This document shows, piece after piece, positions 10,009 to 41,688 of a stretch of 64,000 bases of DNA. Each line of letters begins with the position of its first letter. Positions within the stretch are counted from its first letter, which is position 1. The translations under genes and the position numbers were made by a program. Under the pieces are notes generated by a model. The model saw nothing but the letters and a program-made list of their open reading frames with translations. It did not search any database and was not told where the DNA came from. The stretch lies in assembly GCF_013297935.1 (NCBI RefSeq), contig NZ_JAAFIX010000005.1, forward strand, positions 1 to 64,000. The letters are read 5' to 3'. This DNA comes from Rhodoferax sp. GTDB taxonomy: Bacteria; Pseudomonadota; Gammaproteobacteria; Burkholderiales; Burkholderiaceae_C.

Positions 10009-13000
10009 ATGTTGTCAAAAATACCGCTTTGGTTGGGGCGTTTAAGCGTCGGGCGCAAACTCACGCTCATCTACCTGCTGGACTTGACGGCCGTCATTTA
10101 CGTGTCGGGCATCCTCATCCACGAAAAATACCTCGCGATTGACTTTGCCCGCAAAGAGATTGTGGGCGTCCAGTACACCGAGGCGGTGCGCCGCAGTGTG
10201 ATGGACAACATCCTGGCACCGGCTGGCACGGTGCCCGCAGCCCGCGCCGGGGCGCTTCAGGGGCTGGAGCAAGCGAAGGCGGCGTTTGACGGTGAACTCC
10301 GCACCGGTGGTGCGTCCTCCCGGCTGCACGCCACGTTGGCGGACGCAGCCGCGGCGTCTGAGCATGGCGTCCTCGTGTCGCAGGCGCGGGACCTGCTCAC
10401 GATCGTGGGCAACCAGTCCAATTTGATTCTGGACCCGGACCTGGACAGCTACTACGTGATGTCGCTGACCCTGCTGCGCTTGCCGGAGCTGCTGCAGGTC
10501 ATGCTGGACACCCATCACTTTATGAGCCACTGGGGAACGCGGGTCCCCGGCTTCAACCCCAATGCCCAGTTGTTGACTCTCCTGGGCCGGCTGGACGCCG
10601 TGCAACAGGGCCTGGAGTCAGACTACGAGCAAACCTGGTTGGCAGGCACGCCGGCTTTACAGGCGGCCCTGCGCCCGGGCCGCGATGCTATGCGCCGGTC
10701 TCTGACCGAATTCACGCGGGCGGTCCGCGATATCAACACCGGCAGTATTACCCCGGAACAGACCGCACGGCTGGACGCCAGCTTCCGCATTGCACTGCAA
10801 GACCTCTCCGGCAGCTGGCAGACCGGCCTTACCCAACTTGCAGTCTTGTTAGACCAGCGGGTGGAACAACTCTTCCATCGCATGTGGCTGCACTTGGGGA
10901 CTGCGCTGGCGCTGTTGGGCTGCATTTTGAGTCTGGTGTATCTGGTGGCCAGCCAGATCGCGAAACCTCTGCAAAGCCTGGCCCGCGTGGCCAACGATGT
11001 GCGCCTCAAGGCGGACTACAGTTTGCGTGCCGAGTGGCACAGTCGCGATGAAATCGGCCAACTGTTTGCCGCTTTCAACGGCATGTTGGCGCAGCTGGAC
11101 CGTGACCGCCTGGTGCAGCAGGAGCTAGCCGCCAGTGCCCGCGCCGCCGAAGCGCAGCGGGAGCTGGTGGAGGCGTTTCCGATTCCCATGGTGGTGACCT
11201 CGGTGCCCGACCACGAGGTGTTGCACGTCAACACCCCGGCGCGCCCCTGGCTGAGCGGCCGCACCGATGACCCGTGGCGCCACGGCCTGGAGCCGGGCGT
11301 GCGGGGGCGGTTCTTTCAGCGACTGGCGGATTTTGATGCGGTCGATGAGTTCGAGGTGCGCTGGCATGGCGGCGCCACGCCCTCGTGGGCGGTGTTGTCG
11401 GCGCGCCGGCTCAACTACCAGGGGCGCGACGCCGTGCTCACCGCCTTCACGCCCATCAACAAGCTCAAAGTGATGGAGCAGCGGCTGGAGCTGTGGGCCA
11501 AGGTGTTTGAAGCGTCCAGCGAAAGCATCATCATCATGGACGGTGCCCGCAACATCATCAGCGTGAACCAGGCCTTCTGCCGCAGCACCGGGCACGATTT
11601 GTACGAGGCACTGGGCCAGGACCTCAGTTTTGTGATGGAAACGCCGCAGGACGCGGTGTGGACGCATCTAGAAGACCACAACGACTGGCAAGGTGAAGTG
11701 CGGTTCTGCAAACAGAACGGCGACAGCTATCCCGCCTGGCTGATGGTCTCTACGGTGCACAAAAGCGCTACCAGCGGCGAGGTGGTGAACTACATCGGCA
11801 TCTCCATCGACATTACCGACCGCAAGGCCAAAGAGGAGCGCATCCGCTTCCTGGCCCAGCACGATGTGCTTACGGAGCTGCCCAACCGAGCCCTGTGCCA
11901 GCAGCGGCTGGGCGAGGCCATGGAGAGTGCGCGCCACAGTGGCGAAAAAGTGGCGGTGCTGTTTATTGACCTGGACCGGTTCAAGCTCATCAACGACACC
12001 GTGGGCCACCACATTGGCGACGGGCTGCTGCGCACCGTGGCGCGCCGCCTCAGCAGTGCAGTGCGAGCCGACGATACGGTGAGCCGCCTCGGGGGCGATG
12101 AGTTTGTGATCGTGCTGCGGCATGTGGGCGATTTGGCGGAGCTCAACGCCATGGTCAACGACCGCCTGATTCCGGCGATCCGCCAGACCGCGACGGTCGA
12201 CGGGCATGTGCTCACGGTGTCCTGCAGTGTGGGCGTCGCCCTGTTCCCCGATGATGCGCTGGACCAGGACGAGCTGATGCGCCGCGCCGATGCCGCCATG
12301 TACGAGGCCAAGTCCGCAGGGCGGGACACCGCCCGCTTCTTTTCTCCCGAGACCGATCAGCGGGTTCTGGCCCGCCAGACCATGGAGAGCCAGCTGCGCC
12401 AGGCGCTGGCGAACAACGAGTTCAGTCTGCACTTTCAGCCCCGGCTCAATGCCCGCACCCGCAAGGTGCAAGGCGCTGAAGCCCTGCTGCGCTGGAAAAA
12501 CCCGATGCTCGGGCATGTGCCGCCGGGCGAGTTCATCCAGGTGGCCGAAGAGAGCGGCCTGATCAAACCCATAGGCGCGTGGGTGTTGGCCGAGGCCTGC
12601 CGGAGCTGGATGGCGCTGGAAGCCCAAGGGGTGAGCAAGGGGCTGGAGCTCTCGGTGAATTTGTCGGTGGCCCAACTGGCCGACCCGGAGTTGGTCGATC
12701 AGCTCAGTGCCATATTGCGCGAAACCCGCATGCCGCCCGCGCAGCTGGAGTTGGAGCTCACCGAGTCGCACCTGATGGACAACCCGCTCGCCGCCCAGCA
12801 GCAGGTGGCCGCCCTCAAGGCGCTGGGGGTGCAGGTGGCTATTGACGATTTCGGCACCGGCTACTCCAGCCTGGCCTACCTCAAGCGCTTTGCGATCGAC
12901 AAACTCAAAGTGGACCAGTCTTTCGTGCTCGGCATGCTGGAAGACAGTGCCGATGCGGCCATCGTGCACGCTGTCATTGCGCTCGGCCACACGCTGGGCC

Positions 13001-13263: not shown

Positions 13264-14121
13264 TTAAGCCGTCAGTTGCCGCTGCAGCCAGCGGCACACC
13301 GGGCTGGAGGCGTCTTCCAGCCCGTGGATCACGGTGAAGTGGTCGGCGCCTTCGATGGCGCTCAGCTCTACCGGGTTGCCCAGGGCCACTGCCGTGTTGC
13401 GGTAGGTGGTGGACTGGCGGGCGAATTCGCCGGACTCTTGGCCACCCCAGACCACCCAAGTGGGCGTAGGGCATGCGCGCAGATTGGGCGTGGGGGACTG
13501 GCGGCGGATGATGCCGGCATCCAGCTGGATCATGGGTTGCAGGTAGCTGTAGCGCAGCGGCTCCAACTCATAGAGGCCGCTGAACAGCAAGCCCGCCTTG
13601 AGCGGGTCGCGCGGCAGGCCGTAGTCGGTGTCCCAGGCGGTTTGCAAGCACATGGCACCCAGGTGGCCGCCGGCCGAGTGACCGCCCACGCCCACGCGGG
13701 TCGGGTCGCCACCGTAGTGTTGGATATTGCGCAGCGTCCAGGCCACGGCCGAGCGCACCTGTCGCGTGATCTCGTCAATCGTGACAAACGGCGCCAGCGC
13801 GTAGTTCACCACCACGGTGGTGATACCGCTGGCGTGCAGGCCCAGCGCGACGCCATGAAAGTCTTTGCTCTGGAAGGCGCGCCAGTAGCCGCCGTGGATG
13901 AACACAAAAACGGGCGCGTTGGGCTGGTCTGCCGGAAAGATGTCCAGCGTCTCATGCACGGTGGGGCCGAAGGGGATGCCGGCATGGTGCTTGAGGGTGC
14001 TACGGGCCTTGTCGGCCTGCGCGGCAAAGTGCTTGCCGGGCGCGGTCGGGTCGGACAGTGCGATGGAGGGGTTGTACTGCGCGTCAATTTGCGCCTGGGT
14101 GTCAAAGTCGCGGTAGAGCAT
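13264..14121 (-). CDS. Alpha/beta hydrolase, kynurenine formamidase/esterase-like
   Basis: Cytoplasmic serine hydrolase of 285 aa with an oxyanion-hole motif HGGYWR and nucleophile elbow GHSAGGH, the combination seen in bacterial arylformamidase-like and carboxylesterase enzymes. A C-terminal GADHF supplies the likely catalytic His. ATG 14121 is used; a TTG at 14148 overlapping the livF stop is an alternative. As the last gene of the HAAT transporter operon it may hydrolyse an ester or amide brought in by that transporter. The lack of neighbouring tryptophan-degradation genes argues against a strict kynurenine role. Confidence 0.8.
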   Translation of the reverse strand: MLYRDFDTQAQIDAQYNPSIALSDPTAPGKHFAAQADKARSTLKHHAGIPFGPTVHETLDIFPADQPNAPVFVFIHGGYWRAFQSKDFHGVALGLHASGITTVVVNYALAPFVTIDEITRQVRSAVAWTLRNIQHYGGDPTRVGVGGHSAGGHLGAMCLQTAWDTDYGLPRDPLKAGLLFSGLYELEPLRYSYLQPMIQLDAGIIRRQSPTPNLRACPTPTWVVWGGQESGEFARQSTTYRNTAVALGNPVELSAIEGADHFTVIHGLEDASSPVCRWLQRQLTA

Positions 14122-14144
14122 GGGGCTGAAGTGTCCTTGATGAA

Positions 14145-14861
14145 TCAAATGCCGACGTAGCGGTGCCAGAGTTCGGGTTGTGTGGCCAAGGTGGCTGAGT
14201 CGCCACTCCAGACCGCGCGGCCGCGCTCCATGATGGTGTGGTGGCCGGCCAGCGCAATCAGGCGCTGCACATATTTGTCGATGACCAGCACACTCTGGCC
14301 TTGGGAGCGCAGGGTGTCCAGGCAGCGCCAGATGTCTTCCCGGATGAGCGGGGCCAGGCCTTCGGTGGCTTCGTCCAGGATCAGCAGGTGCGGGTTGGTC
14401 ATGAGCGCGCGGCCGATGGCCAGCATCTGCTGCTCGCCACCCGAGAGCTGGTTCCCCATGTTGCGTGCCCGTTGCTCAAGCACCGGGAAGAGGTGGTAAA
14501 TCCGCTCCAGCGTCCATGGCTGGGCACTGGCATTGCGCCGCGCGGCAAAGGCAATCAGGTTTTCTTGCACCGTGAGGTTGGGGAAAATCTGCCGCCCCTC
14601 GGGCACCAGTGCCACGCCCATGCGGGCAATGCGGTCGGGGCTCAAGCCCTCAATGCGCTCGCCCCGGAAGCGGATGCTGCCGTTGCGCGCTGGCGTCAGC
14701 CCCAGAATGCTGCGCACCGTGGTGGTCTTGCCCATGCCGTTGCGGCCCAGCAGGGTGCAGGTGGTGCCGGCCGGGAGCTGCATGTCCAGCCCGAACAGCA
14801 CCTGGCTGTTGCCGTACGCCGTCTCCAGGCCCTGGATGTCGAGCAGGGTCTCGGTGCTCAT
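14145..14861 (-). CDS. livF: HAAT-family ABC transporter ATP-binding protein LivF-type
   Basis: One of two ATPases powering a branched-chain amino acid/amide-type (HAAT) importer. The 238-aa protein has Walker A GRNGMGKTT, signature LSGGEQQ and Walker B LLILDEATEGLAP. The usual LivF VEQN segment after Walker B is replaced by VIDKYVQRL. Start overlaps the livG stop by four bases (ATGA), indicating translational coupling. Symbol reflects subfamily; substrate may be a non-amino-acid carboxylate or amide. Confidence 0.9.
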   Translation of the reverse strand: MSTETLLDIQGLETAYGNSQVLFGLDMQLPAGTTCTLLGRNGMGKTTTVRSILGLTPARNGSIRFRGERIEGLSPDRIARMGVALVPEGRQIFPNLTVQENLIAFAARRNASAQPWTLERIYHLFPVLEQRARNMGNQLSGGEQQMLAIGRALMTNPHLLILDEATEGLAPLIREDIWRCLDTLRSQGQSVLVIDKYVQRLIALAGHHTIMERGRAVWSGDSATLATQPELWHRYVGI

Positions 14862-15634
14862 GCGCGCACCTCCGGCAAGGCTTCGTCGCCCAGGTAGGCG
14901 CGTTTCACGTCGTCACTTTGGCGAATGGCATCCGGCTGCCCGCTGGCAATCACGCGGCCGGCTACGAGCACCGAGATGGTGTCGGCCAGTTGGAACACGG
15001 CGTCCATGTCGTGCTCCACCAGCAGCAGCGTGGTCTCCGCGCGCAGCGATTGCAGCAACGCCACCATGCGCTGGGATTCGTCCGGCCCCATGCCGGCCAA
15101 GGGTTCGTCCAGCACCAGCAACTGCGGGCGGCTGGCCAGCGCCAAGCCCACCTCTAACTGCCGTTGCTCGGCATGCGACAAGGCGCCTGCCGTACGTTGC
15201 AACTGAGCCTGCAAACCTACGCGCGCTGCCACGTCTGCTGCGGCCTGCATGCGTTGGGTCTCGGTGTGTACCGGGCGCCAAAAGCGCATGCTGCTGCCCG
15301 CCACCGCCTGCAGGGCGAGGGCCAGGTTGTCTTGCACGCTCAGGCGCAAAAACACGTTGGTAATCTGGTACGAGCGAGCCAAACCGCGCTTCACACGTGC
15401 GTGCATGGGCAGGCGGGTGATGTCTGCCCCGTTGAGTAACAGGCGCCCGGAATCCGGCTGCAGCGCGCCCGAAATCTGGTGGATAAGCGTGGTTTTTCCT
15501 GCGCCATTCGGGCCAATCAAGGCATGGACTTCGCCTTGGTGTACCTGCAGGCTGGCGTGGTCGGTGGCGGTGAGCGCGCCGAAGCGCTTGACCAGCGTGT
15601 CGATCTGTAGCAAGGGGGGGGCGCCGGTGCTCAT
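14858..15634 (-). CDS. livG: HAAT-family ABC transporter ATP-binding protein LivG-type
   Basis: Second ATPase of the transporter, 258 aa from the ATG at 15634, which overlaps the livM stop as ATGA. Walker A is GPNGAGKTT, Walker B LLVLDEPLAGMGPDES, and the switch region reads LLVEHDMD. The signature loop is LSHAEQRQLE rather than the canonical LSGGQ form, which is common in LivG-like proteins. It sits in an uninterrupted operon of receptor, livH, livM, livG, livF and hydrolase. Confidence 0.9.
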   Translation of the reverse strand: MSTGAPPLLQIDTLVKRFGALTATDHASLQVHQGEVHALIGPNGAGKTTLIHQISGALQPDSGRLLLNGADITRLPMHARVKRGLARSYQITNVFLRLSVQDNLALALQAVAGSSMRFWRPVHTETQRMQAAADVAARVGLQAQLQRTAGALSHAEQRQLEVGLALASRPQLLVLDEPLAGMGPDESQRMVALLQSLRAETTLLLVEHDMDAVFQLADTISVLVAGRVIASGQPDAIRQSDDVKRAYLGDEALPEVRA

Positions 15635-16602
15635 GGCTGGCCCCGCGTCCACACGCTGCGCAGGCTGGCCAGGCCGCGCGGTGCCAGCAGCACCACAGCC
15701 AGCAACATGGCGCCCAAGCCCAGCTGCCAGTGTTCGGTGGTGTGGCCCAGCACTTCTTCAAGCAGCAGGAAAGCGGCAGCACCCAGCACGCCGCCATACA
15801 GGTGGCCCACGCCACCCAGAATCACCATCACCATCAGCATGCCGCTCTGGCTCCACTGCATCATGGACGGGCTGACAAACCCTCCCTGGTTGGCCAGCAA
15901 GGTGCCGGCCAGACCGGCCATGGCGCCCGCCAAGGTGAAGGCCGTGAGCTGCGTGCGCAGCACCGGAAAACCTAGCGCCTGCATGCGCACCGGGTTCTCG
16001 CGCAGGCCTTGCAGCACCTGGCCGAAGCGCGCGTTGAGCAGGCGCTGGGTGAACAGCAGGCACAGGGTGAGCGCACCGAGGGCCAGGTAATAGAGTGCCG
16101 TGTCGTCAGGGGCGATGCCGGCCCAGGTGTTGCGCCCGGCCAGGGGCAGGCCGTCGTCCCCGCCGTAGGTTTTGAGGGAAACGGCCAGGTAATACAGCAT
16201 TTGCGCAAAGGCCAGCGTGATCATGATGAAGTACACGCCCTGGGTACGCAGGCTGATAAAACCGATCAGGCAGGCCAGGCCCGCGCTCACTAGCATGGCA
16301 GCGGGCCAGGCAATGGCAGCAGGCACGGTGCCGTGTTGCATGAGAATGCCCACGGTGTAGGCACCCGCGCCCACAAAGGCCGCATGCCCGAAGCTCACCA
16401 AGCCGCCGAAGCCCAGAATCAGGTTCAGGCTGCTGGCCGCAAGGGCAAAAATCGCAATGCGGGTGGCCAGCGTGACGTAGAACTCGGCGTGCAAAGCTGC
16501 CGTGATCTGCGGCAGGGCCAGCATCACCAGAAACACCGGGAGTGCAGCCCGCAGGTGCAGGGTGTGGTGCAGCGAGGTGCGGGCGTTGTCGGAATCAACC
16601 AT
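15631..16602 (-). CDS. livM: HAAT-family ABC transporter permease LivM-type
   Basis: Inner-membrane permease of 323 aa with about nine hydrophobic segments. The LivM signature region LILGFGGLVSFGHAAFVGAGAY is present near residue 60. Its start overlaps the end of livH by eight bases. With LivH it forms the transmembrane path of the importer. Confidence 0.9.
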   Translation of the reverse strand: MVDSDNARTSLHHTLHLRAALPVFLVMLALPQITAALHAEFYVTLATRIAIFALAASSLNLILGFGGLVSFGHAAFVGAGAYTVGILMQHGTVPAAIAWPAAMLVSAGLACLIGFISLRTQGVYFIMITLAFAQMLYYLAVSLKTYGGDDGLPLAGRNTWAGIAPDDTALYYLALGALTLCLLFTQRLLNARFGQVLQGLRENPVRMQALGFPVLRTQLTAFTLAGAMAGLAGTLLANQGGFVSPSMMQWSQSGMLMVMVILGGVGHLYGGVLGAAAFLLLEEVLGHTTEHWQLGLGAMLLAVVLLAPRGLASLRSVWTRGQP

Positions 16603-17515
16603 GGGCAGGGAACAGGCCGCGCGGCTTGAAGAACAGAACCGCAGCCATCAACACATAAATCAAGATAGAGGCCACCGCCGGCGCCGCATCGGCTGCCAGC
16701 GCTGCGCCGAAGAGCGACTCGAACACCATGGGCAGCAGAGTGCGCCCGCCGGAGTCCACCATGCCCACCAGCAGCGCGCCCACCAGCGCGCCGCGAATGG
16801 AGCCGATACCGCCGATCACGATGACCACAAAGGCCAGAATCAGAATGCTCTCCCCCATGCCCACCTGCACCGCCAGCAGGGGCCCGAGCATGCCGCCGGC
16901 CAGCGCGCATAAAGCGGCGCCCAGCCCGAACACCGCAGTGAAAAGGCGCTGCACATTGGTGCCCATGGCCAGGGCCATGTCGCGGTTGGAGGCGCCGGCA
17001 CGGACTTGCATGCCCAGCCGGGTGCGGGTCACCAGCAGGTAGAGCAGCAAGGCGGTGGTCAGGCCCACACCGATGATGAGTAGGCGAAAAGCCGGGTAAA
17101 AAAAGCCGGGCAACAACTCCACCGGGCCCGAGAGTGCGGCCGGCGGGTTCAGCGACAGGGGCTGTGAGCCCCAGATCATGCGCACCGACTCGTTACACAT
17201 GAGCAATATGGCAAAGGTGCCCAGCACTTGGGTGACGTGGTCCCGCCGGTAGAGCCGGCGCAACACGCTCACTTCGAGCAGCACCCCGAAAATGGCAGTG
17301 CCCGCCACCCCCGCCACCAACCCCCACCAGAACGAGCCGCTGGCCTGGGTGGCTGTGGCGATCAGGTAGGCGCCCACCATATAGAGGGATCCGTGGGCCA
17401 GGTTCACCATGTCCATGATGCCGAACACCAGGGTCAACCCGGCGGCCAGCAAAAACAGCATCAGGCCGAGCTGCAGGCCGTTCAGGGCCTGCTCCAGCAG
17501 CAGAATTCCGCTCAT
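16595..17515 (-). CDS. livH: HAAT-family ABC transporter permease LivH-type
   Basis: Inner-membrane permease of 306 aa. The N-terminal segment NGLQLGLMLFLLAAGLTL followed by GIMDMVNLAHGSLYM is the LivH hallmark, and the C-terminal GGIGSIRGALVGALLVG is the conserved cytoplasmic loop for ATPase contact. It follows the receptor gene by only 16 bases. Confidence 0.9.
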   Translation of the reverse strand: MSGILLLEQALNGLQLGLMLFLLAAGLTLVFGIMDMVNLAHGSLYMVGAYLIATATQASGSFWWGLVAGVAGTAIFGVLLEVSVLRRLYRRDHVTQVLGTFAILLMCNESVRMIWGSQPLSLNPPAALSGPVELLPGFFYPAFRLLIIGVGLTTALLLYLLVTRTRLGMQVRAGASNRDMALAMGTNVQRLFTAVFGLGAALCALAGGMLGPLLAVQVGMGESILILAFVVIVIGGIGSIRGALVGALLVGMVDSGGRTLLPMVFESLFGAALAADAAPAVASILIYVLMAAVLFFKPRGLFPAHG

Positions 17516-17531
17516 GCGCGTGCGTCAGGCC

Positions 17532-18728
17532 TTAGAGGCCGGGCATCTTGCAGTTGGCGGCGTAGGCGTCGGCGTGGTTTTTGAACACGGTGCCCAGAGT
17601 GCGGTTGGTGACGCGGCCCTTGGCGTCGCGGGTAATGACGCGCAGGTAGTAGTCCTGGATGGGGAAGTGGTTGCTGTTGAACTTGAAGGCGCCCCGCACC
17701 GAGTCAAACTTGGCGGCTTCCAGTGCCTTCTTGACGGCGGCTTTGTCGTCCAGCTTGCCCTTGCTGTCGCGCACGCCGGCGTCCATCAGGCGGGCAGCGT
17801 CGTAGCCTTGGGCCGCGTACAGGGTGGGCAGGCGGCCGTATTCTTTTTCAAACTCCGCCACAAATTTCTTGTTGGCCGCGTTGTCCATGTCGTGGCCCCA
17901 CTGGCTGGTGTTGAACATGCCCAGCATGGGCTCGCCCACGGCTTTGATCACGTCCTCATCGCCCGAGAATCCGGGGCCGAACAGCGTGATGTCCTTGGAC
18001 AAGCCAGCGCCCACAAACTGCTTGATGAAGTTAATGCCCAGGCCGCCGGGCAGGAAGATGTAGACCGCGTCCGGCTTGGTGGCGCGCAGCTTGGAGAGCT
18101 CGGCGCCGTAGTCGAGCTGGTTGAGGGCGGTGTAGGTCTCGGAAGCAATCTCGCCTTTGTAGAAACGCTTGAAGCCGGTGAGGGCGTCTTTGCCTGCGGG
18201 GTAGTTGGGGGCGATCAGCGCCACGCGCTTGAAGCCTTTGTCGGTGACGGTCTTGCCCACCGCCTCATGCATGTTGTCGTTTTGGTACGAGGCACTGAAG
18301 AAGTAGGGGTTGCACTGCTCACCCGCGTATTGCGAGGGGCCGGCGTTGGCGCTGATATAGAAAGTCTTGGACTGGAAGGTGGGAGTGCCCACGGCCAGCA
18401 TGACGTTGGAGAACACGATGCCGGTCATGAAGTCGACCTTGTCGCGCTTGATCAGCCGGTCTGCGGTTTGGCGGCCCACTTCGGGGTTGGCCTGGTCATC
18501 GGCCACGATGACTTCGGCAGGGCGGCCGCCGAGCTTGCCACCGTTAAGTTTCACGGCGAGCTGAAAGCCGTCACGGATGTCCACGCCCAAACCAGCGCCG
18601 GGGCCGGACAAGGTGCTGAGCAAACCGACACGAACGGGTTCCGGGGTCTGGGCCCAGGTACCTGCTGTTGCGGCAACCAAAGCTGCGGTCAAAACCAGGC
18701 GGGAGGGGGCAAAACGGGGCAGGTGCAT
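17532..18728 (-). CDS. HAAT-family periplasmic substrate-binding protein
   Basis: Periplasmic receptor of 398 aa (Peripla_BP_6 fold) and first gene of the transporter operon. A signal peptide with cleavage near residue 26 (GTWAQ) precedes the mature start PVRVGLLSTLSGPGAGLG. Conserved segments include VADDQANPEVGRQTADRL and the late motif RVALIAPNYPAGKD. AAGGAA precedes the ATG at 18728. The ligand is not identifiable; close relatives in betaproteobacteria are often linked to aromatic or amide catabolism rather than leucine. Confidence 0.85.
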   Translation of the reverse strand: MHLPRFAPSRLVLTAALVAATAGTWAQTPEPVRVGLLSTLSGPGAGLGVDIRDGFQLAVKLNGGKLGGRPAEVIVADDQANPEVGRQTADRLIKRDKVDFMTGIVFSNVMLAVGTPTFQSKTFYISANAGPSQYAGEQCNPYFFSASYQNDNMHEAVGKTVTDKGFKRVALIAPNYPAGKDALTGFKRFYKGEIASETYTALNQLDYGAELSKLRATKPDAVYIFLPGGLGINFIKQFVGAGLSKDITLFGPGFSGDEDVIKAVGEPMLGMFNTSQWGHDMDNAANKKFVAEFEKEYGRLPTLYAAQGYDAARLMDAGVRDSKGKLDDKAAVKKALEAAKFDSVRGAFKFNSNHFPIQDYYLRVITRDAKGRVTNRTLGTVFKNHADAYAANCKMPGL

Positions 18729-20812: not shown

Positions 20813-21619
20813 ATGGATATCTTGAAGCGAAACCACGTTAACGTGAGCGGTGAAGGCACCCAAACATTGCTCTACGCCCACGGCTTCGGCTGTAACCAGC
20901 ACATGTGGTCTCAGGTGACCCCTGCGTTTGAGGCAAGCCATCGACAGATTTTGTTCGACTATGTGGGCTGTGGCGCCTCCGATGCGAGCGCGTTTGACCC
21001 TCGCCGCTACAGCACCCTGAACGGTTACGCTCAGGATGTGCTCGATGTTTGCGATGCCCTCGGCTTGAGCTCCGGAGTCACTTTTGTGGGGCACTCAGTG
21101 AGCAGTTCCATCGGCATGTTGGCCTCCATTGCCCGCCCAAGCCTTTTTGATCGCATGATCATGGTGGGCCCGTCTCCTTGTTTTGTTAACCACGCTCCGG
21201 ACTACGCGGGCGGCTTTGAGCGTACCGACCTCGAAGGTTTGTTGGCGCTGATGGACCAGAACTACATCGGCTGGGCCAACTACCTCACCCCGGTGATCTC
21301 CGGCGAGCAAGGCGGCGGACCGGTCGCAAAAAATCTGGAGGAGAGTTTTTGCTCGACGGATCCGCTGATTGCACGCATTTTTGCCGAGGCTACTTTTTAC
21401 GCGGACAACCGGGCGGACCTGCCTCTGGTCACCTGCCCCAGTTTGATTCTGCAACACCGGTATGACGCTCTTGCACCGGTCGAGGTGGGGGAGTACTTGC
21501 ACCAGCACCTGCGCGGCAGCACGCTGCGGGTACTGGATGTGGTGGGGCATTGCAGCCACATGTCCCATCCGGCGTTGGTCGTCGATGAAATGAAAGCTTA
21601 TTTAGCGACTTCGCTGTAG
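20813..21619 (+). CDS. RsbQ-like alpha/beta hydrolase (signalling)
   Basis: A 268-aa alpha/beta hydrolase very close to Bacillus RsbQ, which activates the PAS domain of the phosphatase RsbP through an unidentified small molecule. Shared segments recalled from RsbQ include GHSV.S/G.IGMLASI, MVGPSPC, NYIGWA, FCSTDPVIAR-like and GHCxHMSHP. The triad is complete: S95 in GHSVS, D218 in RYDALAP, H246 in GHCSH. ATG 20813 has a GGAGAA site. The gene is 22 bases upstream of a PAS-GGDEF gene on the same strand, so the usual PAS partner here is a diguanylate cyclase. No RsbP, SigB or anti-sigma gene is present. Confidence 0.9.
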   Translation: MDILKRNHVNVSGEGTQTLLYAHGFGCNQHMWSQVTPAFEASHRQILFDYVGCGASDASAFDPRRYSTLNGYAQDVLDVCDALGLSSGVTFVGHSVSSSIGMLASIARPSLFDRMIMVGPSPCFVNHAPDYAGGFERTDLEGLLALMDQNYIGWANYLTPVISGEQGGGPVAKNLEESFCSTDPLIARIFAEATFYADNRADLPLVTCPSLILQHRYDALAPVEVGEYLHQHLRGSTLRVLDVVGHCSHMSHPALVVDEMKAYLATSL

Positions 21620-21641
21620 TCATGGTGACCGCCCGCGTGTC

Positions 21642-22643
21642 ATGAAGCACCTTGATTTGCTACCTAGTCCTGTGTTGGCTACCGATTTGCGGGGGAGCAT
21701 CCTGACAGCGAATCGGGATTTGTTGGCACTGGTGGGCACAGATGGGGGGGCGTGTGCGGGCCGAACTCTGGATGTTTTGATGCCGGCTGCGAGTCGCATT
21801 TTCATGCAGACCCACGTCTGGCCTATGGTGATGCGCTATGGCGCAATCCAGGAGATTTATCTTCACCTCAGCACAGCCAGCGGTGAGTCGGTCCCGGTAA
21901 TGGTGAATGCCCGCCAGGGCCGCTGGGATGAGACGGAGTGTATTTTTTGGGTTTTCTTTGTAGCGCAAGAGCGCAGCCGTTTCGAGGCTGAGCTCTTGGA
22001 CGCCCGGGGCCGTGCCCAACGCTTGGCGGCTGAGTTGTCACAGGCGAATGCCGAGTTGAACGCACTTCATCAGCAGATGTCTGAACATGCACAACATGTG
22101 GAGTCAGAAAACCGAGAGCTTTCTGCGCTAAGCCTGACCGATCCCCTGACGCAATTGGGGAACCGCCGCGCCTTGGAGCGCGCGGTGGAGCAATGGCAAA
22201 AGCAGACCCCTCAAGGCACACCCGCAGCCTTGATGATGGTCGATGCAGATCATTTCAAGAAAGTGAACGACACCTATGGTCACGATGAGGGCGACCGAGT
22301 GTTGCAGGAGTTGGGCCAACAACTCCAAGCCAGTGGCCGAGGGAGTGATCTGGTGGTGCGCTATGGTGGAGAGGAGTTTGCGATGTGGTTGCCGGGTGCC
22401 ACGCCGGACGGCGCACGTGCCGTTGCCGCGCGTACCCATGCCCTGATTGCGCAGGTGCGGGTGGGTGACCGGCCCATCTCGGTGAGCATTGGTGTCGTCT
22501 GCGCACAGCACACGCTGCACAAGGAACAAGATATGGTGTTTCTGAGTCGCATGCTCCAACAGGCGGACCTTGCGCTCTACCGGGCCAAAGCGGCAGGGCG
22601 CAATCGCACCGAATGGCACACCGGTGCTCTTGGACTCTCCTAA
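21642..22643 (+). CDS. PAS-GGDEF diguanylate cyclase, RsbQ partner
   Basis: Soluble 333-aa protein: N-terminal PAS domain (about 1-115, beginning LLPSPVLATDLRGSILTANRD), a coiled-coil linker (about 118-170), and a GGDEF domain with active-site GGEEF at 242 and an intact inhibitory site RGSD upstream. It should synthesise c-di-GMP. The PAS type and its coupling to the RsbQ-like gene parallel the RsbQ-RsbP pair of Bacillus, with cyclase output replacing PP2C phosphatase. No transmembrane segment is seen, so it is cytoplasmic. Confidence 0.9.
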   Translation: MKHLDLLPSPVLATDLRGSILTANRDLLALVGTDGGACAGRTLDVLMPAASRIFMQTHVWPMVMRYGAIQEIYLHLSTASGESVPVMVNARQGRWDETECIFWVFFVAQERSRFEAELLDARGRAQRLAAELSQANAELNALHQQMSEHAQHVESENRELSALSLTDPLTQLGNRRALERAVEQWQKQTPQGTPAALMMVDADHFKKVNDTYGHDEGDRVLQELGQQLQASGRGSDLVVRYGGEEFAMWLPGATPDGARAVAARTHALIAQVRVGDRPISVSIGVVCAQHTLHKEQDMVFLSRMLQQADLALYRAKAAGRNRTEWHTGALGLS

Positions 22644-39687: not shown

Positions 39688-41688
39688 CTAGGCCCGAACT
39701 CTGGCAACAAAAGCAGCAGCCGGCATGGGTTTGGCAAACCAATAGCCCTGGTATTGCTCAATGCCTTGGGCCTGCACCCAATCCAATTGGGCTGCAGTTT
39801 CTACCCCCTCGGCCACGATCTGCAGTTGCATCAGCCGGCACATGGAGACAATGAGCTCGGCTACCGGGCGGTTGGCCATGATGTCTTGCACAAAAGTTTT
39901 GTCGACTTTCAGTACTTGGATCGGAAAACGGTTCAGATAGGCTAGGTTGGAGTAGCCTGTGCCGAAGTCGTCCACGCTGATAGAGAAGCCCATGCGCCGC
40001 AAATCGTCTAGCGTTTCGTGGGTGTGGGGCGCCACACCGAGCAACATGGATTCGGTGAGTTCCAATTCGAGGCGCGCAGGTTGCGCCGCCGTGGCTGTGA
40101 CGATGCGAGCCAGGCGGTTCAGCAACTCCGGGTCCCGGAACTGGCGGGGCGATAGGTTGATTGAAATCTTCAAGTCCAGCCCTTCATGGGCCCACTGCAC
40201 TTGCTGCCGCGCAGCTTGCTCAAACACCCAGTCCCCCAAGGCACTGATCATGCCGGTGCTCTCGCAAGTCGGAATAAAGGCGTCCGGCCCTACCAGCCCG
40301 CGCTGCGGGTGGTTCCAGCGGATCAGCGCTTCTGCCCCGCGCACCTGGCCCGTGGCTACGTCCACGCGTGGCTGGTAGTACAGCTCAAACTCTTGCCGAG
40401 TCAGGGCATGGCGCAGTTCGGTTTCCAGCTCCAGCCGCTGTTGCACGCGCTGCGCCATGGTCGATTCGAAGATGTTGAGGGCGTTGCGGCCGCTCTCTTT
40501 GGCGCTGTACATGGCGAGGTCGGCATTGCGCAGCAGCGTGTCCAATTCTTGGCCGTGTTCAGGGTAGAAGCTCACACCTACACTGGGGGTCACGATGACC
40601 TCGATGCCATGGAGCTGAATGGGCTGCGCCACGGTGCTACTGAGGCGCTGGCGCACGCGCTCGACCTCGTCGCGAATGTTGTCCGCCACCATCAGGATGA
40701 GGAACTCATCTCCGCCCAGACGGGCCACCAGGTCGCTGCCTCGGGTGATGGCCCGCAGACGCTCGGCCACCTGCACCAGCAGAGCGTCGCCCGCCGCGTG
40801 GCCCAGGGTGTCGTTGATGTCCTTGAAGTGATCGAGGTCGATGTAGATCAGTGCAGCCTCGGTAGCGCCTTCTCCCATGTCACGCAAGGTGTCGGCAAAG
40901 CGCTGCATCACATGGCTGCGGTTGGGTAGGCCGGTCAAGGAGTCGTGCCGTGCCAGGTACTGAGAATGGTCTTGCGCATGCTTGATGGCGGTGACATCGA
41001 CTTCGCTCATGAGCACTGCGTCGTGCCCGGTCACAGCATCGCGGCACAGGCGCACAGACACCTCGTGCCAGCGCAGGTTGCGGGTGGTGAGTGTGGGCAG
41101 TGTCAGCGTGGCTTCGCCGTTCAGCTCGAGCATGGCCAGCATGCGCTCCAGCGCTTCGATGTCCTGAAAGCGCTCGGCCATGCGCATGTTGAGGTTGGGC
41201 ACCGATTCGCGTGCAGCCGGGTTGCGGTAGAGCGCGCCACCTTCCCGGTCGTAGAGGGTGATCATCACAGCGGTGTGCAACAGTGCCTCGACTGATCGCA
41301 GCGCCTCGGGGCGGTCTGGTTCAATGATGCGGCTTTCGCACAGCATGGCCGTGCGTCCGTCGGACAGGCGTATTCCGCTGAGCTGCATGTTCATGGGCAC
41401 GGGCACTCCAGCAGGGTAGAGGGTCCACTGCTCGCTGAAGCAGGCGCTGTGCTGCTCAAAGTCGCTCTGGTATTGCTTGAGCCGCTTGGCGACGGAGGCC
41501 GACATGTCTGCCCCCATATCGCGGCTGCAAAGCTCCGGCAGTCCCTGCGCGCGCCAGAGGGTGAGTGCGGCATCGTTGGCCCAGTGCACCCTGCTTTTGT
41601 CGATGTCAAACACCCAGATGGGCAGGCTGATGCGCTCCAGTAAGCGGAAGTGCTGCCTGCGTGCCTCCAGCTCTTCGCTTGTCAGCAT
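39688..41688 (-). CDS. PAS-GGDEF-EAL cyclic-di-GMP signalling protein
   Basis: Cytoplasmic 666-aa protein with no transmembrane helix: N-terminal PAS-like domains (about 10-240, starting LPIWVFDIDKSRVHWAND), GGDEF domain with GGDEF at residue 325 and inhibitory RGSD just before, and an EAL domain with EAL at 453, plus DDFGTGYSNLAYL and the C-terminal EGVETAAQ. Both catalytic motifs look intact, so output direction is undecided. It is the third c-di-GMP enzyme in the window. Confidence 0.92.
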   Translation of the reverse strand: MLTSEELEARRQHFRLLERISLPIWVFDIDKSRVHWANDAALTLWRAQGLPELCSRDMGADMSASVAKRLKQYQSDFEQHSACFSEQWTLYPAGVPVPMNMQLSGIRLSDGRTAMLCESRIIEPDRPEALRSVEALLHTAVMITLYDREGGALYRNPAARESVPNLNMRMAERFQDIEALERMLAMLELNGEATLTLPTLTTRNLRWHEVSVRLCRDAVTGHDAVLMSEVDVTAIKHAQDHSQYLARHDSLTGLPNRSHVMQRFADTLRDMGEGATEAALIYIDLDHFKDINDTLGHAAGDALLVQVAERLRAITRGSDLVARLGGDEFLILMVADNIRDEVERVRQRLSSTVAQPIQLHGIEVIVTPSVGVSFYPEHGQELDTLLRNADLAMYSAKESGRNALNIFESTMAQRVQQRLELETELRHALTRQEFELYYQPRVDVATGQVRGAEALIRWNHPQRGLVGPDAFIPTCESTGMISALGDWVFEQAARQQVQWAHEGLDLKISINLSPRQFRDPELLNRLARIVTATAAQPARLELELTESMLLGVAPHTHETLDDLRRMGFSISVDDFGTGYSNLAYLNRFPIQVLKVDKTFVQDIMANRPVAELIVSMCRLMQLQIVAEGVETAAQLDWVQAQGIEQYQGYWFAKPMPAAAFVARVRA

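Follow-up and report, generated by a model that had tools for sequence, protein, structure and literature searches.

An RsbQ-like hydrolase and a PAS-coiled coil-GGEEF diguanylate cyclase encoded side by side in Rhodoferax sp.: a further example of a known sensing module, with linkers quantised in heptads

Within the window, the 64,000-nucleotide stretch of Rhodoferax sp. DNA analysed here, a gene for an RsbQ-like alpha/beta hydrolase is followed on the same strand by a gene for a diguanylate cyclase (Table 1). Because the gap between them is only 22 bases, the arrangement suggests that both genes are carried on one transcript, and a promoter scan found no promoter-like or terminator-like sites in this gap. 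An earlier note, made from the DNA sequence alone, had described this spacing, followed by a PAS-coiled coil-GGDEF protein with intact active and inhibitory sites, and the coordinates, the AlphaFold2 model, and the motifs all agree with that description.

Table 1. Genes and features of the hydrolase-cyclase locus (positions in the window)
Feature	Position	Strand	Details and basis
Likely hydrolase ribosome-binding site, ggagaa	20801..20806	+	Read and counted by eye
RsbQ-like alpha/beta hydrolase	20813..21619	+	268 aa; ATG at 20813, TAG ending at 21619; triad S95, D218, H246
Intergenic gap, 22 bases	21620..21641	+	Sequence
PAS-coiled coil-GGEEF diguanylate cyclase	21642..22643	+	333 aa; ATG at 21642, stop ending at 22643; Pfam GGDEF, E 5.9e-42; AlphaFold2 model
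RsbP-type PAS domain, residues 1-107	21642..21962	+	Long F-alpha helix 49-66 with F54, H58, P61; AlphaFold2 and class residues
Single predicted signalling helix, residues 109-164	21966..22133	+	AlphaFold2; heptad-quantised length in relatives
I-site RxxD, R233-D236	22338..22349	+	Sequence; conservation in single-PAS cyclases
GGEEF active-site motif, residues 242-246	22365..22379	+	Sequence; conservation in single-PAS cyclases

Among solved structures, the hydrolase is closest to Bacillus subtilis RsbQ (1wom; phmmer E 7e-95), with 143 of 263 alignment columns identical, followed by Olei00960 (3qvm; phmmer E 5.5e-78), and it matches Pfam Abhydrolase_1 (E 4.2e-16). The plant proteins D14, DAD2, and KAI2 match from E 3.5e-53 by phmmer; being nearer to RsbQ than to the best D14-type protein, the hydrolase falls outside the KAI2/D14 receptor family proper. 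The catalytic triad is intact, and the claim of a close RsbQ relative with a full Ser-Asp-His triad thus held on both counts. Across 167 non-redundant relatives, the Ser and the Asp are kept in every sequence and the His in 166. The sole hydrolase with Asn in place of the catalytic His (L192) could, from its sequence, be a non-catalytic receptor. In its own genome, the window's hydrolase is single-copy at useful similarity, with a weak second match (24%, 2.3e-5).

The PAS domain of the cyclase scores below Pfam's own cut-off, but is firmly recognised by a family HMM built in this analysis and by AlphaFold2. The AlphaFold2 model, based on a 52-row alignment (mean pLDDT 93.1, pTM 0.66), places a PAS fold up to residue 107, then one unbroken helix of 56 residues, then GGDEF. 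The RxxD motif lies five residues before GGEEF, as expected of an I-site, and R233 and D236 are each conserved in at least 90% of 52 single-PAS cyclases. GGEEF and the other catalytic-core columns are invariant across the 52 rows and intact in the window's protein, and on these motifs both the active and the inhibitory site of the cyclase are predicted to be intact.

Residues of the window's PAS domain presumably stand at a constant offset of -1 from RsbP numbering, an assignment of our own that was aided by the RsbP sequence. The RsbP-PAS class was described by Nadezhdin, Brody and Price (2011, PMC3183031) by nine characteristic residues, C10, L13, L48, Q53, F55, C56, Y59, E72, and P86, and by the absence of a DIT motif. 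The window has S9, L12, M47, R52, F54, M55, H58, E71, and P85 at these positions, and its PAS domain ends in V107-A-Q-E-R, without DIT. Eight of the nine fit the consensus residue types of PMC3183031, under a symbol-to-position assignment that is again ours, the figure legend giving none; Ser for C10 does not fit. A C10A substitution had a mild effect in B. subtilis RsbP (PMC3183031).

The same paper collected 45 RsbQ/RsbP-PAS pairs whose outputs were a PPM phosphatase, a histidine kinase, or a diguanylate cyclase (the last, for example, in Psychromonas ingrahamii); in 36 of the 45, the output was preceded by a coiled coil of 21 residues or more. PSI-BLAST similarity to RsbP-PAS below 3e-18 is also part of the definition given there. 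At our locus, an RsbQ homologue lies immediately upstream of the PAS protein, the PAS domain is N-terminal, and the predicted helix is long enough for the at least 21-residue coiled coil of the 2011 definition. Since such pairs were described in 2011, the locus is a sound further example of a sensing module known from that time. It shares the whole layout with the cyclase branch of the published module, including the RsbP-type PAS without DIT, and differs in belonging to another genome and in having Ser rather than Cys at position 10. It resembles B. subtilis RsbQ-RsbP in the sequence of the hydrolase, in gene order, and in the PAS class residues, whereas the output of RsbP is a PPM phosphatase acting on RsbV-P and that of the window is a cyclase. 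The idea that the sensor half was kept while the output was exchanged for c-di-GMP synthesis is therefore supported, but it was already in print: PMC3183031 and a 2025 eLife paper (PMC12143880) both describe the module with cyclase outputs, the latter restating it with kinases and cyclases. The eLife paper also presents an AlphaFold2 model of two RsbP and two RsbQ molecules in which RsbQ sits between the PAS domains and the linkers. Beyond the 2011 paper, what is new here comprises the counts of linkage and outputs, the heptad linkers, the single-frame fusion, and the at least 12 output switches reported below.

We surveyed relatives of the hydrolase in sets of genomes that overlap and that each include the window's own genome, and found matches in 7 of 61 genomes of the genus, 36 of 250 of the family (E up to 1e-40), 15 of 349 of the order, and 20 of 398 of the phylum. 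Among named genomes, we found 70 loci, spread over Burkholderiales, Pseudomonas, Methylococcales, campylobacterial MAGs, Hymenobacter, one Sporosarcina, and others, and a fused hydrolase-PAS query matched another 28 genomes, out of 147 from the family of one relative, G839. With short duplicate stretches omitted, the total was 184 loci, which collapsed at 97% hydrolase identity to the 167 non-redundant ones. An RsbP-PAS-type domain follows the hydrolase at 152 of the 165 assessable loci, the other two ending at a contig edge. The survey of related genomes that the earlier note had called for thus showed strong conserved linkage. Counted over all 167 loci, the PAS partner is present at 95 of 99 where the hydrolase is at least 50% identical to the window's and at 57 of 68 below that. 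In 148 of the 152, PAS begins at -2 to 102 nt relative to the stop codon of the hydrolase, a closeness that goes beyond chance; L087, L109, L114, and the fused L142 fall outside this range.

Three of the 152 PAS matches score 40 bits or less and were omitted from residue and Pfam counts, leaving 149. The Pfam outputs of these partners, some of which extend past the fetched stretch, are GGDEF (83), HATPase_c (61), and EAL (12); no phosphatase family appeared among the 149 in full lists of 22 families each, with Bacillota barely sampled. Two short partners, L107 and L206, have no output domain. Among the class residues, E72 is found in 147 relatives, P62 in 145, H/Y59 in 136, and F55 in 111, and 121 of the 149 combine an aromatic residue at 55 with H/Y59, P62, and E72.

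PAS is absent at 13 of the 165 assessable loci, which counts against the sensing-module reading given below; nine of them have hydrolases at no more than 45% identity, where the edge of the family may have been crossed. In a Sulfurimonas MAG (L041), a 66% identical hydrolase is followed by a decayed PAS remnant that covers the first 32 model positions and then runs into stop codons. Two Hydrogenophaga records (L057, L058) carry orphan hydrolases, 64% identical, with no PAS within 4 kb downstream. At L063, the hydrolase has two internal stops and the downstream cyclase is intact, so some cyclases may persist without their partner.

The length of the linker between PAS and output follows a heptad rule. 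We measured cyclase linkers from L118, in the conserved Glu-Leu at the PAS end, to D167, with which the DxLT motif of GGDEF opens. The window's linker has 50 residues, and all 52 single-PAS cyclases have lengths of 1 mod 7: 15, 22, 36, 43, or 50 residues (1, 26, 1, 1, and 23 cases); a second method reproduced these counts. For kinases, we took the distance between L118 and the H-box histidine, which in 16 of the 18 with a single PAS is 30, 37, 44, 51, 58, or 79 residues, always 2 mod 7. The two off-phase kinases, L101 and L210 (54 and 63 residues), have H-box or PAS-end anchors that look doubtful; they are retained in the 16 of 18 and were left out of the tree count. On the hydrolase tree, linker length changed at least five times among cyclases and six times among kinases (16 rows). 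Two control segments inside GGDEF, with four tree changes each, are not quantised (34, 35, 37, 39, and 41 residues; 39-42 residues). That four differences in length in one class and five in the other should all be divisible by seven has, as a rough figure, a chance of about 1 in 7^9. Cyclases of 540-577 residues (for example, L051) form an architecture of their own, with extra PAS domains and a PAS-to-DxLT distance that hardly varies: it is 269 residues in 14 of 19 longer cyclases.

A similar spacing has been published for the LOV-activated diguanylate cyclases LadC, with 35 or 21 residues from the DIT Asp to the DxLT Leu (PMC10396304). Like the window's protein, these combine a PAS-family sensor, a coiled coil, GGDEF, and a whole-heptad linker; unlike it, they sense light through a flavin, have a DIT motif, and lack a partner hydrolase. 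By our own alignment, the short RsbQ-linked form measures 35 residues in the LadC convention and the window's 63. Judging from R111, E115, and L118, V107 is probably the equivalent of the DIT Asp; if so, the 63 residues are nine heptads, in phase with ordinary PAS-GGDEF proteins. From the 51 GGDEF matches in the window's 3.6-Mb genome, only one of which lies beside an RsbQ, we took 30 loci and found 15 DIT-like motifs; the distance is 21 residues in 13, 20 in one, and 112, a spurious value, in another. Of the additions to the known module, the heptad rule is the most useful: common to two output classes, it is a quantitative constraint on how the signal passes through the protein.

A quick maximum-likelihood tree of the hydrolase, with 82 cyclase-type and 62 kinase-type tips, requires no fewer than 12 switches of output between cyclase and kinase. 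The hydrolases of L158 and L159, for example, are 69% identical to the window's, yet they are paired with long kinases. In L142, from a genome (G839) of the same class as the window, hydrolase, PAS, and GGEEF are joined by a short linker in one 582-residue frame. At the fusion junction, a single in-frame stop is present in each of the related pairs L134, L186, and L187. The fusion was seen in one genome only and could be a base-calling error at one base. We found no recognisable description of a fusion of an RsbQ-PAS-type hydrolase in paper listings, and the accessible text of PMC3183031 holds no mention of heptad-quantised linkers or a fused hydrolase.

AlphaFold2 predicted the domains of fused L142 with individual confidence, but linker 281-287 is disordered and the arrangement is not fixed (pTM 0.53), so no hydrolase-PAS contact could be read from it. 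Co-variation between hydrolase and PAS over 145 pairs gave a top inter-protein score of 7.8 sd, where permuted pairings reached at most 4.9. We did not accept this as evidence of an interface because the hot columns (H215, S248, W103, E115) look clade-defining. We also set aside the idea that hydrolase and PAS evolve as one unit: in mirror-tree comparisons, distance correlations with the hydrolase were 0.813 for PAS versus 0.801 for GGDEF (partial, 0.38 versus 0.31), which does not clearly set PAS apart.

Six further genomes of the genus carry the pair. In all of them the same two peptidase genes, M48 and M14, come after it, and dbpA lies on its other side in four, the fetched stretch being too short in two. 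Five named relatives (L032-L036, some probably the same genomes) have the full order dbpA-hydrolase-cyclase-M48-M14. Thirteen genus genomes have a strong M48 match and no pair; of the 11 that can be assessed, 9 still have dbpA no more than 1.5 kb from M48. Gain or loss of the pair took place at this position on one or a few occasions. A genome of the genus without a hydrolase match (G125) was rejected as an empty site, having no match at E <= 0.001 to the M14 gene that neighbours the pair. Within the genus, we saw no sign of a mobile element around the pair, which occupies one stable place, and we therefore have no evidence for mobility. At the DNA level, a plasmid collection gave eight records with short patches only, none spanning 80% of the query.

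Taken together, the adjacent genes, the class residues, the catalytic sites, all intact, the linkage conserved among relatives, and the heptad-quantised linkers described above probably reflect an RsbQ-PAS sensing module that controls a diguanylate cyclase: the hydrolase, when occupied by its ligand, would contact PAS, shift the register of the coiled coil, and so set cyclase activity. The hydrolase would be the ligand-binding partner, its intact triad binding, and perhaps slowly cleaving, a small molecule. With ligand bound, the hydrolase would touch PAS near the F-alpha helix and where the coiled coil begins; this contact would move the helices of the cyclase dimer's parallel coiled coil into another register and thereby set GGEEF activity, with the intact I-site capping the output. 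By analogy, the mechanism would be that of B. subtilis RsbQP, with activation as its sign and a change in c-di-GMP as its outcome. The RsbQ-PAS contact was shown in B. subtilis, with cell extract found to be necessary, and is lost in F55A (PMC3183031). The earlier note overstated the precedent in saying that RsbQ activates the PAS domain of RsbP through a hydrophobic ligand; this is a hypothesis, and PMC3183031 reports no ligand or cofactor found as of 2011 and shows instead the Phe55-dependent contact. We met no later report of the signal read by RsbQ in the literature looked at.

Nadezhdin, Brody and Price put forward two models, 1 and 2, which differ in the partner that acts as primary sensor; we lean toward the hydrolase, rather than PAS, as the receptor. 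In Model 1, the hydrolase is an enzyme that hands a small product to the PAS pocket, and PAS is the primary sensor. PAS position 56 is variable among relatives (L, Y, F, H, V, M, A, or C), which counts against this version. The near-invariant triad speaks for it, but would equally fit a receptor, as D14 and KAI2 also retain their catalytic triad. The triad is, moreover, required in B. subtilis (PMC3183031), and we regard Model 1 as possible, though doubtful. It is highly improbable that an ordinary metabolic hydrolase merely sits beside a cyclase. The stability of the genus pair between dbpA and the M48 peptidase makes linkage at genus level weak evidence by itself, and the loci without PAS, mostly at low hydrolase identity, are in keeping with chance adjacency; against it stand the retention of the pair across the wider set, most of all at 50% identity or above, while kinase and cyclase outputs alternate, and the genetic proof of RsbQP function in B. 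subtilis (PMC3183031).

The kinship with plant receptors invites a further reading, in which a butenolide from plants, or one resembling theirs, is sensed by the hydrolase as a ligand of the KAI2/D14 type and c-di-GMP is thereby tied to plant contact. The kinship proposed earlier is real at the sequence level, but none of our results singles out a butenolide, or any specific ligand, as the signal. Plant KAI2/D14 share hydrolase family and triad with the window's protein and are also among the structural matches of the fused relative, but they signal through F-box and SMXL proteins, without PAS. RsbQ, itself without a known ligand, is far closer, and the relatives include sulfur-oxidising campylobacterial MAGs and Candidatus Nitrotoga, which are not plant-bound as a rule; we consider this reading very unlikely.

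More tentatively than the sensing module itself, we suggest that RsbQ-PAS might serve as a universal plug whose helical phase never varies, through which a KAI2-like ligand-gated hydrolase controls c-di-GMP or a phospho-relay, even as one polypeptide. Cyclases and kinases could be swapped freely because working linkers differ by whole heptads. If this were true, the window's pair would be a soluble receptor through which c-di-GMP answers a metabolite or diffusible cue, a bacterial counterpart of the hormone-receptor hydrolases. The cyclase-linked pair is also a convenient place to find the RsbQ signal, with easy c-di-GMP reporters and no sigma-B cascade between sensor and read-out.

Elsewhere in the window there are two further GGDEF matches, at 11854-12327 (+) and 40483-40953 (-). 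An ABC importer set at 13264-18728 (-) comprises two ATPases, two permease-like ORFs, and a periplasmic binding protein of the amino-acid type (PF13458); it adjoins an Abhydrolase_3 protein and looks like an uptake operon with a hydrolase of its own.
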